A stretch of 64,000 bases of DNA from Streptomyces sp. NBS 14/10 (GTDB lineage Bacteria > Actinomycetota > Actinomycetes > Streptomycetales > Streptomycetaceae): the NCBI RefSeq assembly GCF_002224125.1, contig NZ_NCSM01000036.1:46971-110970 (forward strand), given 5' to 3'. Position numbers and translations under genes: made by a program. The number at the start of each line of letters is the position of its first letter. Positions within the stretch are counted from its first letter, which is position 1. Below the pieces are notes generated by a model that was not told the DNA's origin, did not search any database, and saw only the letters and a program-made list of their open reading frames with translations. Of this stretch, positions 47,189 to 54,884 are shown piece after piece.

Positions 47189-47308
47189 CCGGTTCCCCGG
47201 GCAGCGCGCTGCTGCTGCGAGGGGGCACGGCCCTTGTACATATGACTGACAAGAACCTGTCACACACGGATCGGAATGCGGGTTCGCCCGACGCCCGTTC
47301 CGACTGGC

Positions 47309-48232
47309 ATGACTATTGGCGTAACGCTCAACGCGTCCGACGCGCAGAACCAGGTCGACGCCACCGTGCTGCTGGCCCAGGAAGCCGCAGCCGCCGGTCT
47401 GCGGTCGGCTTGGTTCGGCCAGACCTTCGGCGCGGACTCACCTCAACTCGCGGCGATCGTCGGGCGGGCGGTGCCCGGACTGCAGGTGGGCACCTCCGCG
47501 ATCCCCGTCTTCGGCCGCCACCCGCTGCTCGTCTCCAGCCAGGCCCAGACCGCCCAGGCCGCGACACACGGCCGCTACCACCTCGGGCTGGCCCTGGGCA
47601 CGAAACTGCTGACGGAGACCGGCTTCGGCCTGCCCTTCGAACGCCCCATCGCCCGACTGCGTGAATTCCTCACCGCGCTGCGGCAGTTGACGCAGAACGG
47701 CACGGCCGACTTCCACGGTGAACTGCTCACCGCCACCACTCCGATCCCGGCGCGCGTACCGGGCGCCGAGAGCGGTGTCCCCTTTCTGGTCGCCGCGATG
47801 GGGCCGCAGGCGCTACGGGTCAGCGGTGAGATCGCGGACGGAATCCTGCCCTATCTGGCGGGGCCGCGCGCCTTGGCGGAACACATCGTTCCCGCCCTGA
47901 CCGCCGCGGCCGAGGCCGCCGGCCGTCCCGCACCCCGAATCGTGGCCCTGGTGCCGGGCGTGGTCACGGACGACGTGGACGCGGTGCGGGCGAAGGCCAC
48001 CGAGACCCTCGCGTTCTACGAACAGATCCCGTCCTACGCGCGGGTCATCGAACTCTCCGGCGGCCGACGGGCCGCCGACGTGGCCGTGATCGGGGACGAG
48101 AAGACGGTCGGAGCCGAGGTACGGCGTTACCGCGACGCCGGCGCCACCGAGGTCGTGTTCTCGGGCACCGAGATCGCGGGAGAAGCGGACCGCCGGCGTA
48201 CCTGGGCACTCCTCGGCGAACTGGCCGGCTGA
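47309..48232 (+). CDS. LLM-class F420- or FMN-dependent oxidoreductase
   Basis: The 307-residue protein is a bacterial luciferase-like TIM barrel: VTLNASDAQNQVDATVLLAQ, RSAWFGQTFGADSPQLAAIV, HGRYHLGLALGTKLLTE and GVPFLVAAMGPQALRVSGEI. The LAAxGPxxLRxxGExADG-type strand is typical of the F420-dependent branch, but the FMN branch, which includes alkanesulfonate monooxygenases, cannot be excluded. It is followed at 79 bp by DUF1684 and then by the SAM-riboswitch transporter, suggesting a redox step on a sulfur compound (inference). The start at 47309 gives the typical short N-terminal end; 47276 is an in-frame alternative. Confidence 0.87.
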   Translation: MTIGVTLNASDAQNQVDATVLLAQEAAAAGLRSAWFGQTFGADSPQLAAIVGRAVPGLQVGTSAIPVFGRHPLLVSSQAQTAQAATHGRYHLGLALGTKLLTETGFGLPFERPIARLREFLTALRQLTQNGTADFHGELLTATTPIPARVPGAESGVPFLVAAMGPQALRVSGEIADGILPYLAGPRALAEHIVPALTAAAEAAGRPAPRIVALVPGVVTDDVDAVRAKATETLAFYEQIPSYARVIELSGGRRAADVAVIGDEKTVGAEVRRYRDAGATEVVFSGTEIAGEADRRRTWALLGELAG

Positions 48233-48311
48233 GAGCGACCGTCGGGCCGCCGGCCCGACGGATGTCCTGCACCTTGTGCGAGGCCGAGCCTCGCGGGACG
48301 AAGGAGAACGC

Positions 48312-49136
48312 ATGACCACCGAGGTCACCACGACGGACCTCCGGGCCTTCACCGAGAACTGGCTGGACTGGTACCGCGCCCAGGAGGCCCGGCTCGCCGA
48401 CCCGCACGGATTCCTGGCGATCACCGGCCTGCACTGGCTCGACGACCGGCCGCAGCGCTTCCCCGACGCGCCCGGCGCGTGGCACACCGGCCGCGACGGG
48501 GTCGTCGTCACCCTCGACGCCGGTGAGGAACTGGTCGTCGACGGAACGCCGGTACGGGGCGAGCACCGCTTCGGCGTGCTTCCCGAGCGTGGCGGCGTCG
48601 ACGCGGTCTGGGGAGACGCCGTCATCGAGGTCGCCAGGCGCGGCGGCAACGACATCGTGCGCCCCCGGCACCCGGACGCGCCGCTGCGCACCGCCTTCAC
48701 CGGAACACCCGCCTACGCCCCCGATCCGCGCTGGGTCGTGACGGGCCGCTACCTCCCCTTCGGCACACCGCGGCCGACCACCGTGGGCGCCGCGGCCTGG
48801 GGCCTTGAGCATGTGTACCACGCGCCGGGCCGGATCGAGTTCGAACTGCACGGACGTCAGCTGTCGCTGACCGCGTTCCCCGGACGTGGTGCGGGCCGGC
48901 TGATGGTGCTGTTCACCGACGCGACGTCCGGGGTCACCACTTACGCCGCCAACCGGGTCCTGGCCCTCGAGCCGCCCGCCGCCGACGGCACGGTCGTCCT
49001 GGACTTCAACCGCGCCGCGAACCTGTCGTGCGCCTACACGGACCTGGCCACCTGCCCGCTGCCACCGGCCGAGAACCGGCTGCCGGTGGCAATCGAGGCA
49101 GGTCAGAAGACTCCCCGCGAGCGCGGCGGGTCCTGA
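48312..49136 (+). CDS. DUF1684-domain protein
   Basis: This 274-residue protein has the DUF1684 signature (NWLDWYRAQEARLADPHGFL, AITGLHWLD near the start; FPGRGAGRLMVLFTDATSGV, TYAANRVLALEPP later; VLDFNRAANLSCAYTDLATC near the end). The family is widespread in actinobacteria and its function is unknown. AGGAGAACGC precedes the ATG. It probably shares a transcript with the LLM-class gene. No signal peptide or membrane segment is seen. Confidence 0.9.
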   Translation: MTTEVTTTDLRAFTENWLDWYRAQEARLADPHGFLAITGLHWLDDRPQRFPDAPGAWHTGRDGVVVTLDAGEELVVDGTPVRGEHRFGVLPERGGVDAVWGDAVIEVARRGGNDIVRPRHPDAPLRTAFTGTPAYAPDPRWVVTGRYLPFGTPRPTTVGAAAWGLEHVYHAPGRIEFELHGRQLSLTAFPGRGAGRLMVLFTDATSGVTTYAANRVLALEPPAADGTVVLDFNRAANLSCAYTDLATCPLPPAENRLPVAIEAGQKTPRERGGS

Positions 49137-49184
49137 GCCGCGCTGTCGGCCGACGCCATTGACGTACGGCGGGACCGCTCCGTA

Positions 49185-49290
49185 CGATCACGAATGGCAT
49201 TGAGTGTCAGCGTCAAGCCCTGGCTCGCTGACCGGCAACCCTCCCGCGCGGTGGGGTGCTCCAGGTGAAAGCCCGGCGGGATCACCGACG
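49185..49290 (+). promoter_or_regulatory. SAM-IV-like riboswitch aptamer
   Basis: The segment contains, in order, GAGTGTCAGCGTCAAGCCC, TGGCTCGCTGACCGGCAACC, CTCCCGCGCGGTGGGG and GCTCCAGGTGAAAGCC. The GTCAGC/GCTGAC pairing, the AAGCCC turn, the ACCGGCAACC core and the GGTGGGGTGC segment agree with the SAM-I/SAM-IV aptamers that bind S-adenosylmethionine in actinobacteria, best with SAM-IV. It begins about 50 nt after the DUF1684 stop and lies about 380 nt upstream of the transporter operon. A covariance-model search would settle the class. Confidence 0.75.
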
Positions 49291-49343
49291 ATCCCCGCAA
49301 GCGCGTGGCCCCGTGGGCGGGGCCGGAGATATGGAGGACCGGT

Positions 49344-49460
49344 ATGCGGCACGGTGGTGACCTCAGTACCTCCTCCGCCGTCGCCATGGTGTTCTCCCGG
49401 CTCTCGCGTCGGCGCCACATCGACCTGAAGCGCGCGACCAGCTGCCTCTGTCAGGCCTGA
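49344..49460 (+). CDS. Short cysteine-containing leader peptide
   Basis: A 38-codon frame with GGAGG 6 bp before its ATG ends SRLSRRRHIDLKRATSCLCQ-A. The RRRHIDL-(x)n-CLC pattern matches the conserved actinobacterial leader peptides found before sulfur-metabolism genes, where ribosome stalling at cysteine codons is thought to report cysteine supply. An internal ATG at 49386 would give the usual 24-residue form. It sits between the SAM-IV-like aptamer and two hairpins. Confidence 0.7.
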   Translation: MRHGGDLSTSSAVAMVFSRLSRRRHIDLKRATSCLCQA

Positions 49461-49469
49461 CGGCCCTTC

Positions 49470-49499
49470 CCACCGCCGGCCGGAGTCCGGCCCCGGTGG
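49470..49499 (+). terminator. Attenuator-type hairpin after the leader peptide
   Basis: CCACCG with CGGTGG and GGCCGGA with TCCGGCC form a nested stem of 13 bp with a small internal bulge. It starts 10 nt after the leader-peptide stop, so a stalled ribosome could affect its folding. Confidence 0.55.
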
Positions 49500-49567
49500 T
49501 CGCCGCACTCGTTTCCGCCTGATCCCCGTTTCCCCCGTTCCCCCTGATCCCTGTCTGCACAGCGCTC

Positions 49568-49598
49568 CCCCGCCACCGGCGTCGCGCCGGTGGCGGGG
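49568..49598 (+). terminator. Second strong hairpin in the leader
   Basis: CCCCGCCACCGGCG pairs perfectly over 14 bp with CGCCGGTGGCGGGG around a TCG loop. It lies 72 bp before the binding-protein start. There is no T-run, but the stem is strong enough to act as a streptomycete terminator or attenuator. Confidence 0.6.
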
Positions 49599-49669
49599 CC
49601 GAACGCCCATGCGCGGCCGTGCCTCATAGGGCACCCCATGCCTGGTGACACGAGTAGGAGAACCCCTCC

Positions 49670-51289
49670 GTGACAACACTTCCGGATTTCAGATCCTCCC
49701 GATGGGCGGCGCTGACCGCCCTGGTGACCACCAGTGTGCTGCTGACCGCCTGCGGGTCGAGCGGCGACGGCTCCGGCAGCGGCAGCGGCCGGGCGAAGTC
49801 CGGCTCCACCCTGACCTTCGCGGTGAGTTCGGACGCCGGCTGCGTGGATCCGCAACAGGTTGCCAGCAACGACACCATCTACTCGGTGCGCCAGATCGTG
49901 GACTCCCTGACGGACCAGGACCCCAAAACCGGCAAGATCGTGCCGTGGCTGGCGAAGAGCTGGGACATCAGCTCCGACACAACGACGTTCACCTTCCGTC
50001 TGAGGTCGGGTGTCACCTTCAGCGACGGGTCGAAGCTGACCGCGCAGGTGGTCAAGGACAACTTCGACGCGGTGCCGAAGCTCGGCGCCCTGGGGACCCT
50101 GGCCGAGGGCTACCTGAGTGGCGTCAAGAGCACCAGCGTGATCGACCCACTCACCGTCAAGGTGACCTTCAAGGAGCCCAACGCCCAGTTTCTGCAGGCC
50201 ACTTCTACGCATTCGCTGGGCATCGAGTCATCGGCGAGCGTGAGGAAGACCCCGCAGCAGAAGTGCAGTGACGGGGTGGTCGGATCCGGGCCCTTCGTAC
50301 TGAAGCAGTACGCGCAGAACCAGTCGATCACCCTGGCCAAGCGCGCCGGGTACGCATGGGGTTCCTCGCTGTGGACCAAGAAGGGCGAGGCGTATCTGGA
50401 CAAGCTGGTGTTCAAGGTCGTACCGGAAGCGGGCGTGCGGGCCGGCAGTCTCCAGTCCGGCCAGGTGGCCGCGATCAGCAGCGTGGGCAGGGCCAATGAG
50501 GCGGCACTCAAGGGCAGCCAGGTCACTCTCCAGCGACGGGCCAACCCCGGCATCGTGTTCGGTCTCGGGCTCAACAGCTCGCGACCGGCGCTGAAGGACG
50601 CGAGGGTGCGCCAGGCGATCCTGTCGGCCATCGACCGACGGCAGATCGCCGACACCGTGTTCCCCACCGGCACCAAGGCGGCGACCAGCGTCCTCGCACA
50701 CACCACGCCCGACTACACCAACCTCGCCCCGGACCTGGCCTTCGACGCGGCCAAGGCGAAGTCCCTGCTGGACGAGGCGGGCTGGAGCACCGGCAGCGAC
50801 GGCATCCGTACGAAGAACGGCAAGAAACTGAGCCTGACCGTCGACTGGATCCCCAACTCGGCAACCAACCAGCCCGCTCTGGAACTGCTTCAGCAGCAGC
50901 TCAAGGCCGTGGGTGTGGCCGTGACCCTCAAGCAGCTCCAGGTCACTCAGCTGGCGCCGACGCTCCAGTCGGGCGGTTACGACGCGGCTTGGGGGAACAT
51001 CACCCGTGCCGATCCGGACATCCTGCGCAGTTCCTTCTCCACCGAGCTGGCCAACTTCTACCGCGTTCCGGCGGGCAGCCTGGATGCGGCGCTGTCCGCG
51101 CAGGCCGCGACCACGGACCCGGCCAAACGCAAACAACTGACGGGCCGGGCACAGCAGTTGATCGTGCAGAGTGCCTACTACGCGCCGGTGGTGGAGCTCC
51201 AGACCCAGCTGGGCGTGTCGAAGAAGGTGCACGACCTGAACTTCGACGCCTCCAGCAGGATCCAGCTGCACGACACCTGGATCGGCTAG
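49670..51289 (+). CDS. Oligopeptide-type ABC transporter, family 5 binding lipoprotein
   Basis: From GTG 49670 (AGGAG 9 bp upstream) the product is 539 residues. The lipobox VLLTACGSS marks it as a lipoprotein. The family 5 features are CVDPQQVASNDTIYSVRQIV, LTDQDPKTGKIVPWLAKSWD, TFTFRLRSGVTFSDGSKL and VRQAILSAIDRRQIADTVFP. Family 5 receptors bind peptides, nickel, opines or other polar compounds. Control by a SAM-IV-like riboswitch and cysteine leader suggests that the ligand contains sulfur, such as a methionine or cysteine derivative (inference). It is the first gene of a four-gene operon. Confidence 0.92.
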   Translation: MTTLPDFRSSRWAALTALVTTSVLLTACGSSGDGSGSGSGRAKSGSTLTFAVSSDAGCVDPQQVASNDTIYSVRQIVDSLTDQDPKTGKIVPWLAKSWDISSDTTTFTFRLRSGVTFSDGSKLTAQVVKDNFDAVPKLGALGTLAEGYLSGVKSTSVIDPLTVKVTFKEPNAQFLQATSTHSLGIESSASVRKTPQQKCSDGVVGSGPFVLKQYAQNQSITLAKRAGYAWGSSLWTKKGEAYLDKLVFKVVPEAGVRAGSLQSGQVAAISSVGRANEAALKGSQVTLQRRANPGIVFGLGLNSSRPALKDARVRQAILSAIDRRQIADTVFPTGTKAATSVLAHTTPDYTNLAPDLAFDAAKAKSLLDEAGWSTGSDGIRTKNGKKLSLTVDWIPNSATNQPALELLQQQLKAVGVAVTLKQLQVTQLAPTLQSGGYDAAWGNITRADPDILRSSFSTELANFYRVPAGSLDAALSAQAATTDPAKRKQLTGRAQQLIVQSAYYAPVVELQTQLGVSKKVHDLNFDASSRIQLHDTWIG

Positions 51290-51292
51290 CCC

Positions 51293-52252
51293 GTGCGCCG
51301 CTATGTGATCAAACGGCTCGCCCAGGCGGCCGGAGTGCTGTGGGCGGCCTACACGGTCTCGTTCCTGGTGCTGGACTATCTGCCGGGCGACCCGGTCACG
51401 GCGATGGCCAGTGCCGGAATGGACTCGGGGCAGGTCGATCCCGAGCAGATCGCCGCCCTGCGGCACGAGTACGGCTTCGACAAGCCGGTGCTGGTGCAGT
51501 ACGCCGAGTACCTCGGCCGGGCGGTGCGCGGGGACTTCGGCGACTCGGTCGCCACCGGCCGGCCGGTCGCCGGGGCGCTGGCCGACGCGCTGCCGCAGAC
51601 ACTCCAGCTGACCGGCGCGGCCCTGCTGCTCGCGGTGGTCCTCGGCGGCGGTCTGGCGGTGGTGGCGACGTACACCTCTCGGCGCTGGCTGCGGCAGCTG
51701 CTGCTGTCACTGCCGCCGCTGGGGGTGTCCGTTCCCACGTTCTGGGTGGGGCTGCTGCTCGTCGAGGCGTTCTCCTTCCGGCTGCACTGGTTTCCGGCGT
51801 TCGGCAACGACGGCCTTCGGGGGCTGGTGCTGCCGGCCCTGACGCTGGCGGTCCCGACCGGCGCGCAGATCGCCCAGGTGCTCGCCAAGAGCCTGCTCAC
51901 CGCGCTGGACCAGGCGTATGTGGAGACCGCGCGGGCCAAGGGCGCCGGCCGGTGGCGGGTCCATCTGCGGCACGCGCTGCGCAACGCGTCCCTGCCGGCG
52001 CTGACGGTCGTCGGGCTGCTCGTGGGGCAGCTGATCGCCGGTTCGGTGGTAGTGGAGACGGTGTTCTCCCGTGACGGCCTCGGTCGCGTGACCGCGGCGG
52101 CGGTCACGGCCCAGGACATCCCGCTGGTCCAAGGGGTGGTGGTGTTCGGGGCGCTGATCTTCGTGACGACGAACCTGGTCATCGACCTGGTCTATCCGCT
52201 GCTGGACCCGCGGATCGTGGTGGCCTCGGACAGAAGGGCGGGCATCGCATGA
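51293..52252 (+). CDS. ABC transporter permease (DppB type)
   Basis: This 319-residue permease starts at GTG 51293, 3 bp after the binding protein. It has the N-terminal signature of DppB/OppB proteins (YVIKRLAQAAGVLWAAYTVS, then YLPGDPV) and the permease loop YVETARAKGAGRWRVHLRHA. It has about six membrane helices and pairs with the next permease. The stop overlaps the next start by ATGA. Confidence 0.93.
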   Translation: MRRYVIKRLAQAAGVLWAAYTVSFLVLDYLPGDPVTAMASAGMDSGQVDPEQIAALRHEYGFDKPVLVQYAEYLGRAVRGDFGDSVATGRPVAGALADALPQTLQLTGAALLLAVVLGGGLAVVATYTSRRWLRQLLLSLPPLGVSVPTFWVGLLLVEAFSFRLHWFPAFGNDGLRGLVLPALTLAVPTGAQIAQVLAKSLLTALDQAYVETARAKGAGRWRVHLRHALRNASLPALTVVGLLVGQLIAGSVVVETVFSRDGLGRVTAAAVTAQDIPLVQGVVVFGALIFVTTNLVIDLVYPLLDPRIVVASDRRAGIA

Positions 52253-53186
52253 GCCAGAACCTTGTCCACAGCCCGGCCGACACGGCCGACACGGCCGAGG
52301 CCGCCCCCGGCCTCGGCCAGCCGGCCGACACGGGGACCGGTCCCGGACCGGGGCATCGCGTCGACGTACGGCGGGGCTTGCGATTCCTGCTGCGCCGCCC
52401 CGGTCTGCTGCTGTCGGTCGCCGTCGTCGTGCTGGTGGTGCTGGCCTCGTTCCGGCCGGACCTGTTCACCTCGCAGGATCCGCTGAAGGGGGTGCCGTCG
52501 CGGAACTTCCGCGGCCCGAGCGGCACCCACTGGTTCGGCACCGACGAGCTGGGACGCGATGTGTTCTCCCGCGTGGTGCACGGCGCCCAGTTGTCCCTGA
52601 AGGCCACGCTGATCGCGGTGCTGGTCGCGTTCGTGGTCGGCGGTCTGCTCGGCGTGGTCGCCGGGTTCGTGGGCCGCTGGGTGGACGACGTGCTGATGCG
52701 CTTCGTCGACGTACTGCTGTCCATCCCCGCGCTGTTCCTGTCCCTGGCCCTCGTCACCGCGCTCGGATACGGGACGGTGAAGGTGGCGGTCGCGGTCGGC
52801 ATCGCCAGTGTCGCCGCGTTCGCCCGAGTGGCGCGCGCGGAGGTACTCCGGGTGCGTCAGGCGGTGTTCGTCGAGGCGTCGCGCTCATGCGGGGCCCGCT
52901 GGTACTCGGTGCTGGGCCGACATGTGCTGCCCAATGCCGCGGGCCCGGTGATCGTCCTGGCCACCCTCGACTTCGGCTCCTCCATCCTGGCCGTCTCGGC
53001 GCTGAGCTTCCTCGGCTACGGGGCGCCCCCGCCGGCCCCGGAGTGGGGCACGTTGATCTCCGACGGCCGCAACTACCTCGCCAACGCCTGGTGGCTGACC
53101 GCACTGCCCGGACTGGCGATCGCCGCGACCGTGCTGGCCACCAACCGCATCGCACGGGCGCTGGACGGCGAATGGTCCCGGCAGCG

Positions 53187-53190
<4 letters not shown>
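52249..53190 (+). CDS. ABC transporter permease (DppC type)
   Basis: The 313-residue product has a cytoplasmic N-terminal tail rich in Ala and Asp, then six helices. DppC/OppC signatures are GTDELGRDVFSRVVHGAQLS and, in the permease loop, VEASRSCGARWYSVLGRHVL. It forms the channel together with the upstream permease. The ATPase gene starts at its stop (ATGA). Confidence 0.93.

Positions 53191-54884
<1,694 letters not shown>

Follow-up and report, generated by a model that had tools for sequence, protein, structure and literature searches.

The window examined here, a stretch of 64,000 nt of DNA from Streptomyces sp. NBS 14/10 taken at its full length, carries an ABC importer operon whose 5′ untranslated region contains two stacked sensors, namely a SAM-IV riboswitch aptamer and, behind it, a short open reading frame (ORF) for a cysteine leader peptide (Table 1). 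This stacking is a real observation and the pair is conserved, which confirms what an earlier note had remarked on the basis of the letters alone. The importer proved to be of the family 5 type that the earlier note had named, having each of the components by which such an importer is recognised: an SBP_bac_5 binding protein, two permeases and an ATPase, here a fused double one. The 12.1 Mb host genome is Streptomyces-like and holds two SAM-IV matches, the copy in the window and a canonical copy, and the closest named orthologue of the binding protein found, at 94% identity, is that of Streptomyces milbemycinicus. SAM-IV is common in the genus (287 of 295 genomes), whereas the binding protein is scarcer, with a relative at E ≤ 1e-120 in 32 of the 295 genomes, 20 of which have at least 76% identity to it (the host being included in both counts).

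Table 1. Features of the importer locus, with positions numbered from the first letter of the window
Feature	Position	Strand	Basis
LLM-class oxidoreductase, upstream of the promoter-like site	47276–48232	+	TIGR03564, 366.5 bits (cut-off 234.25)
DUF1684 protein, upstream of the promoter-like site	48276–49136	+	PF07920
Promoter-like site (−35 TTGACG, 18 nt spacer, −10 TACGAT)	49159–49188	+	Sequence match
SAM-IV riboswitch aptamer	49196–49309	+	RF00634
Hairpin directly 3′ of the aptamer	49307–49324 (49307–49312 with 49319–49324)	+	Covariation
Leader Shine-Dalgarno, GGAGG	49333–49337	+	Sequence; mostly kept in alignment A1
Leader peptide ORF, 38 codons, MRHGGDLSTSSAVAMVFSRLSRRRHIDLKRATSCLCQA, ending ...SRRRHIDLKRATSCLCQA	49344–49460	+	NF042934
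Motif-terminal cysteine codon UGU, proposed sensing codon	49449–49451	+	Conserved in leaders
Untranslated stretch rich in C and poor in G, where Rho might load	49461–49567	+	Composition
First hairpin	49470–49499	+	Stretch folds at −22.1 kcal/mol, z −3.0
Second hairpin, without U-tract	49568–49598	+	Stretch folds at −34.1 kcal/mol, z −4.4
Family 5 substrate-binding lipoprotein (SBP_bac_5)	49670–51289	+	PF00496; lipoprotein signal by eye
ABC permease 1	51293–52252	+	PF00528, PF19300
ABC permease 2	52249–53190	+	PF00528
Fused double ATP-binding subunit	53157–54884 (scanned range; start codon not fixed)	+	PF00005, PF08352, two stretches each

The aptamer matches the covariance model RF00634 over its whole length (model positions 1–116) with 91.9 bits against a cut-off of 38 (E 2.6e-15), and this is the sole Rfam match of the window at gathering cut-offs. 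The SAM-IV-like element recognised earlier is thus borne out, although its coordinates, given as 49185–49290, were shifted by 11–19 nt from those of the match. SAM-IV riboswitches contain two pseudoknots, and two sets of complementary stretches (49219–49223 with 49261–49265, and 49246–49251 with 49301–49305) that may correspond to them can be read from the sequence itself. The promoter-like site is the only match of its kind within 49050–49760 (mean 0.0 in shuffled sequences), and a likeness to it is visible by eye in several relatives. Given this site, the transcript probably starts beside the aptamer, which would make the leader RNA ~475 nt long rather than the 533 nt of untranslated sequence first proposed. 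The hairpin directly behind the aptamer has modest covariation support: 95.2% of cells are paired, and 5 cells, at three of the six pairs, are changed on both sides compared with 1.1 in shuffles that keep relatedness in place. A hairpin of the same kind follows the aptamer in 27 of 30 readable canonical SAM-IV copies.

Conservation was followed through 78 loci, 47 of which (L063–L107, L113 and L116) are termed relatives in matching most of the binding protein's length at 61% identity or more; the other 31 (L108–L112, L114, L115 and L117–L140) include L139, with 69% over a partial match. At the matching place, as matched by hand, 41 of the 47 relatives have an above-cut-off SAM-IV, a weak one of ~40 bits in L082 and L085, while L102 has one of 35.5 bits, under the cut-off, and none is present there in L091, L095, L101, L104 and L106. 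A leader of the same type precedes the binding protein in 45 of the 47 (L084 and L091 read by eye) and was not found in this place in L104 and L106. The conservation that the earlier note had expected is therefore evident, and neither a lack of covariance-model match nor a lack of leader conservation, the two sequence-level outcomes that would speak against it, was encountered. Both elements occur together in 42 sequences, the window and 41 relatives, which we refer to as the tandem set. Since four of the six relatives lacking an above-cut-off SAM-IV (L091, L095, L101 and L102) keep the leader, the sensors can act apart. Among the 31 other loci, the leader pattern is seen only in the more distant L109–L112 and L114, and not in L139, and no SAM-IV was found in those scanned (L109, L114, L121, L129, L131 and L138). 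In L101 and L102, from Frankia and Protofrankia, the leader 5′ of the binding protein is preceded by an element that resembles a degenerate SAM-IV, for which decay and an altered ligand are candidate readings; in L101 this likeness is by eye, with no SAM-IV match up to E 5.

The leader ORF lies exactly where the earlier note had placed it and reaches the family NF042934 (putative cis_reg_atten leader peptide) with 27.3 bits against a cut-off of 27, a margin of 0.3 bits; on rescoring it gave 26.4 bits alone and 27 with its frame neighbours. Its score against the Ms4527A leader family NF042936 is 24.5 bits, under the cut-off of 45. The leader of L103 and those of three other SAM-IV-linked loci fall under the NF042934 cut-off, and the range scanned for L091, whose frame is uncertain, has no family match. 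By its sequence the window leader is a member of the actinobacterial RRHxDL leader family. Across the 42 sequences dN/dS is 0.20 in a 19-codon core and 0.78 in the ten codons after the start, where codons were compared by position without gaps and the value may be inflated, and from this difference we conclude that selection acts on the peptide encoded by the core. The distance from aptamer start to leader start is 143–150 nt (40 loci, L084 and L097 standing outside this listing), whereas that from leader stop to the binding-protein match is 155–423 nt, approximate because the match may begin away from the start codon. The aptamer is thus tied to the leader, not to the importer.

Leaders of this family point towards sulfur. 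All eight of the host's other above-cut-off leaders precede sulfur- or cysteine-type genes, which upholds the sulfur link drawn earlier: a cysteine dioxygenase (L141), a cysteine synthase-type enzyme (L142), a taurine/sulfonate-type permease (L143), a nitrite/sulfite reductase (L144), an NtaA/DmoA-type monooxygenase (L145), SsuE (L146), an SsuC-type permease (L147) and a mercaptopyruvate sulfurtransferase-type rhodanese (L148). Most of these names denote types, not assignments, because several matches are under curated family cut-offs. Behind the weaker leader matches L150 and L151 come a Peripla_BP_6 binding protein and an SDF symporter. Leader matches occur in three of 60 genomes of a phylum-wide sample, the host being one of the three. 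Two cysteine leaders stand in series before a single NtaA/DmoA-type monooxygenase gene at L145/L154 (G000:C58:4671-4846), the second of them under the family cut-off.

The most surprising result of these sequence comparisons is the invariance of UGU as the cysteine codon at the end of the leader motif. Loci were read for the best-scoring matches, and in the resulting tally of 131 leaders (the window counted once, and L197/L272 counted once) the codon is UGU in 130, the remaining one having no cysteine there. It is UGU in every one of the 42 tandem leaders, where the cysteine codon two positions before the motif end is divided between UGU (20) and UGC (18); in 12 of 12 host leader matches, three of them (L150, L151 and L154) under the family cut-off; in 28 of 28 leader loci from a search of 21 genomes; and in 34 of 34 from the class and phylum searches, where the other cysteine codons of the same stretches are 37 UGC and seven UGU upstream, and 15 UGC and seven UGU downstream. 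Further leaders linked to SAM-IV and with a readable motif have UGU in 14 of 15 cases, L239 having a tyrosine codon, and UGU is likewise present in the leaders of L272 and L283. For comparison, UGU makes up 39 of the 373 cysteine codons in neighbouring ORFs, and among the six genes of the window itself UGC occurs seven times and UGU never. The codon itself was not selected for, since leaders were found through a protein profile or through their place behind SAM-IV; they are not independent, since many are orthologous to each other. A base-paired cause suggested by the consensus fold, in which GAC would pair with GUC, is unlikely, as it amounts to three pairs over a loop of ~25 nt, and it is further disfavoured by the base 3′ of UGU being unconserved outside the tandem set. 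The invariance bears on how cysteine is sensed, whether by slow wobble decoding, nascent-peptide arrest or another route, and was not found described in the portions of the literature on cysteine leaders that were surveyed.

Behind the leader stop the RNA is rich in C and poor in G (0.49 and 0.24 over 49461–49560). C exceeds G in the 100 nt after the leader stop at all 42 tandem loci, with a mean skew of 0.26 against 0.005 (sd 0.13) in 165 other 5′ regions of the same loci (p 1.5e-19, kinship ignored), and for 34 other leaders the following 80 nt are positively skewed in every case (mean 0.24). As a purely compositional sign of Rho, this RNA agrees with PMC1262725, whose authors, in the text accessible to us, suggested Rho for the cys leaders of mycobacteria and themselves called the suggestion weak. 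Farther downstream, the importer Shine-Dalgarno is mostly predicted to be paired (mean 0.82 over 38 sequences), usually with a partner near the start codon, such local pairing being predicted in 71% of the 38. In the window, where 49656–49669 reads as the importer Shine-Dalgarno and then, within a few bases, CUCC directly before a GTG start, the predicted partners lie mostly farther upstream, unlike in the local majority.

As judged from sequence, the pair of SAM-IV and cysteine leader is uncommon among SAM-IV elements overall, yet it occurs in several families. Twenty further SAM-IV copies were taken from the genomes of the relatives, a non-random choice of second and third copies, and these are followed by an RRHxDL leader ending in Cys in 14 cases, by one ending in Tyr in one case, by a polycysteine ORF in another and by none of these in four; the further copies inside L103 and L105 have no such leader. 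Annotation, run on nine of the 20 and on the L103 copy, gave as the next gene a polar-amino-acid/cystine-type permease in L224 and L226 and a second family 5 binding protein in L237 and L238, while in L232 an MCCCSHR ORF is followed by a metY-like start, whose frame is short, and then by metX. Three of four such SAM-IV-linked leaders tested are under the NF042934 cut-off, and the fourth, that of L239 (~225–297), passes it; here the terminal Cys is replaced by Tyr and the overlapping or following frame has a weak GST_C match only. In a sample of the class, 60 of 118 genomes contain SAM-IV. Among 73 listed hits outside the window's genus (L308 being cut by a contig end and L301 short), an RRHxDL leader follows two (L272 and L283), and four (L242, L256, L300 and L301) are followed by an ORF that has a Shine-Dalgarno before it, no more than 20 codons and at least two cysteines, compared with none of 357 control windows, most of them likely inside genes. 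A looser scan flagged eight of the 73, some of them doubtful. The polycysteine ORFs read MCCCSHR in L232, MCCCCLSLAHR in L301, MHCCCTSIYT in L300 and MCIRRMCCR in L242, and metY-like starts, judged by eye from the N-terminal sequence, lie 3′ of those in L232, L300 and L301. Polycysteine ORFs of mycobacteria were reportedly described by Canestrari in 2020. At some other SAM-IV loci the aptamer has a structural gene as the next ORF, for example one of rhodanese type in L233 and, by eye, in L262 and L273, and translation control of the next ORF is for this reason a plausible expression platform.

What the importer carries can be approached through its neighbours. The best NCBIfam match of the binding protein is TIGR04028 (KPN_01854 type), at 334 bits under its cut-off of 468.5. 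Matches to solved structures, tried as a route to the substrate, were uninformative, being scattered over nickel, heme, peptide and YliB-type binders. Of 55 loci, at least 22 have a DUF1684 gene and at least 16 a TIGR03564-type LLM gene within ~6 kb; a TIGR04027-like FMN (LLM) monooxygenase, absent from the window, is found in at least 17, usually directly after the ATPase, and NtaA/DmoA-type monooxygenases form neighbour clusters of at least 12 and at least six loci, all these counts being lower bounds because contigs end. Each neighbour cluster was named from one member; that tested for the TIGR04027-like cluster has TIGR04027 as its sole match, under the cut-off. The suggestion that the window's LLM and DUF1684 genes share a pathway with the importer is weakened by their place upstream of the promoter-like site, by which they may have a separate transcript, but a link is plausible given these neighbour counts and the presence of DUF1684 3′ of the ATPase at L097 and, in three further genera, at L103, L104 and L105. 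The names of TIGR04027 (KPN_01858) and TIGR04028 (KPN_01854) come from one locus, presumably of Klebsiella, and since the binding protein has TIGR04028 as its best match, the pairing of such a protein with an LLM monooxygenase appears to be a repeated theme. This theme supports an organosulfur cargo without naming a compound. The genes behind the host's other eight leaders likewise make an organosulfur compound the likely cargo, and a conserved series of the two sensors would in itself be a pointer to what this unassigned importer carries.

The region likely works as a SAM- and cysteine-responsive pair. We favour, with a little more confidence than doubt, a reading in which it controls an organosulfur importer through two inputs in series, in that SAM would gate the leader, a ribosome short of cysteine would stall at UGU and the output would be through Rho; how these events are ordered, the involvement of Rho and the nature of the cargo are inferred. 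SAM bound to the aptamer would lower translation of the leader, which starts ~34 nt past the aptamer, and an untranslated leader would expose the C-rich RNA, on which Rho would load and end transcription. With cysteine plentiful, the leader would be translated to its stop, and the same RNA would again be exposed, Rho loaded and transcription ended. When both SAM and cysteinyl-tRNA are low, a ribosome stalled at UGU beside the C-rich stretch would shield the RNA, so that the importer would be made only if SAM and cysteine are both low; its cargo would most likely be an organosulfur compound usable by flavin-dependent (LLM) monooxygenases. Several difficulties attend this reading. Unconstrained folding of the 42 sequences gave no consistent SAM-dependent partner for the leader Shine-Dalgarno, the predicted partners being mixed between CCUCC of the aptamer and the leader itself, as they are in short-segment folds of 10 sequences, and were the Shine-Dalgarno to pair with CCUCC in an aptamer free of ligand, the polarity would be opposite to that proposed. 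It also counts against the model that a single stalled ribosome covers little of a 100-nt C-rich stretch, and so do the six relatives without an above-cut-off SAM-IV, the leader pattern of L109–L112 and L114, with no SAM-IV in the two of these scanned, and the thin NF042934 margin together with the below-cut-off scores of L103 and three other SAM-IV-linked leaders.

The stalled ribosome might act on translation instead, opening a structure that hides the importer ribosome-binding site and leaving SAM-IV as a separate control. Such translational attenuation is reported, in the accessible part of PMC13236596, for several cysteine biosynthetic genes of M. smegmatis, and it would accord both with the kinship of the window leader to mycobacterial ones, as expressed in its below-cut-off score against the Ms4527A profile, and with the predicted pairing of the importer Shine-Dalgarno. 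The partner, however, usually lies near the start codon and is at most 60 nt from the leader stop in just three of the 38 sequences, for which reason long-range hiding of the site by leader-proximal RNA was rejected, and the distance between leader and importer varies widely; we regard this explanation as unlikely. Somewhat more doubtful is the idea that only the leader is a working attenuator and that SAM-IV is a copied-in, decaying passenger without coupled logic. The four loci that keep the leader without an above-cut-off aptamer, and the weak scores of L082 and L085, are what such decay might look like, but the aptamer is above cut-off in 41 of 47 relatives at a nearly fixed spacing, and the combination is also seen before further operons and in further families.

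The two hairpins that the earlier note had marked between leader and importer do fold stably in the window, and could on that account be the competing antiterminator and terminator of a classical trp-type attenuator. Both are kept in the nearest relative, L063, where the first has the same form. Most relatives keep the second, whereas the first comes close to background level and a general role for it is not supported. The best hairpin at the second position has a mean of −21.4 kcal/mol over the 42 loci, compared with −17.6 kcal/mol for shuffled sequence, and beats all six of its own shuffles in 15 (absent in L076, weak in L094 and L097); for the first, the values are −17.2 against −15.5 kcal/mol and 13 of 42 (absent in L064 and L097). 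In the 33-locus alignment A2, 88.2% of cells of the second hairpin are paired and 11 are changed on both sides against 4.7 expected, mostly through one C-G to U-A change, while the number of pairs with both-side changes and the number of pair types are not above shuffles. A2 comprises 32 of the 42 loci and L095, and its pair counts favour this hairpin because ten loci were left out (L071, L076, L082, L085, L089, L092, L097, L098, L103 and L105). No intrinsic terminator, that is a hairpin with a T-run or U-tract, was found in 49050–49760, and the lack of a U-tract together with the near-background first hairpin leads us to consider trp-type attenuation very improbable.

As a rule, a riboswitch and a ribosome-mediated attenuator are presented as distinct sensors, and a conserved series of the two would, if true, be a naturally occurring RNA gate with two inputs that reads sulfur status. 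In its sequence and fold, its actinobacterial host and its sulfur-linked downstream genes, the aptamer resembles other SAM-IV riboswitches (RF00634), but it is followed by a cysteine leader peptide instead of directly by the regulated gene. With the actinobacterial cysteine leaders (NF042934 and the Ms4527A and Ms5788A families) the window leader shares the RRHxDL...C peptide and sulfur-metabolism genes downstream; it differs in standing behind a SAM-IV aptamer rather than being leaderless, in having fewer cysteines and in a motif that invariably closes with UGU. Two sensors ahead of a single operon are also a feature of tandem riboswitches and T-box pairs, as presented in the accessible text of PMC12452182, whereas the second sensor here would be a ribosome on an upstream ORF (uORF), not an aptamer or T-box. 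The uORFC-8-2 attenuator before cysS of Rhodobacterales likewise has uORF Cys codons proposed to sense Cys-tRNA, but in what could be consulted of PMC8632094 UGC is dominant and an intrinsic terminator is present, in contrast to the UGU and the absence of a terminator in the window. For SAM-IV itself, the part of PMC8269248 at hand describes a premature transcript in S. clavuligerus that shows one of the strongest drops ahead of the gene, and an S. lividans annotation paper records, in its available portion, a single SAM-IV, ahead of a cysteine desulfurase, along with eight leader peptides of which none is marked as cysteine. The pairing of SAM-IV with a cysteine leader was not found described in the surveyed parts of the accessible open literature on SAM-IV or tandem riboswitches. 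More widely, and more tentatively than for the locus itself, the recurrences might reflect an actinobacterial module in which SAM-IV would gate translation of a cysteine-sensing uORF under the logic 'SAM low AND cysteine low', with sensing by the invariant but normally disfavoured codon UGU, set within a conserved nascent-peptide motif, and a Rho output, and which would precede three or more kinds of importer and, in a simpler polycysteine form, metY-like genes; we think this possible, if somewhat short of probable.

Canonical SAM-IV copies have a short ORF of another kind. After 31 SAM-IV copies other than that of the window (30 copies from the genus and the host's second), no RRHxDL-type leader is present. 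In the canonical copies L001 and L003–L032, a tiny ORF of the form start-NNN-NNN-CGA-ATG-NNN-TAG lies ~60 nt 3′ of the aptamer in 30 of 30 readable cases, encoding a peptide of the MSKRM.../MSKRMR kind (GTGAGCAAGCGAATG in 28 of the 30). SAM-IV elements may often act via tiny uORFs, which bears on their expression platforms. The Shine-Dalgarno of this tiny ORF can pair with the loop of the preceding hairpin in some copies, and short RM-containing ORFs are also seen 3′ of SAM-IV in L244 and L257.
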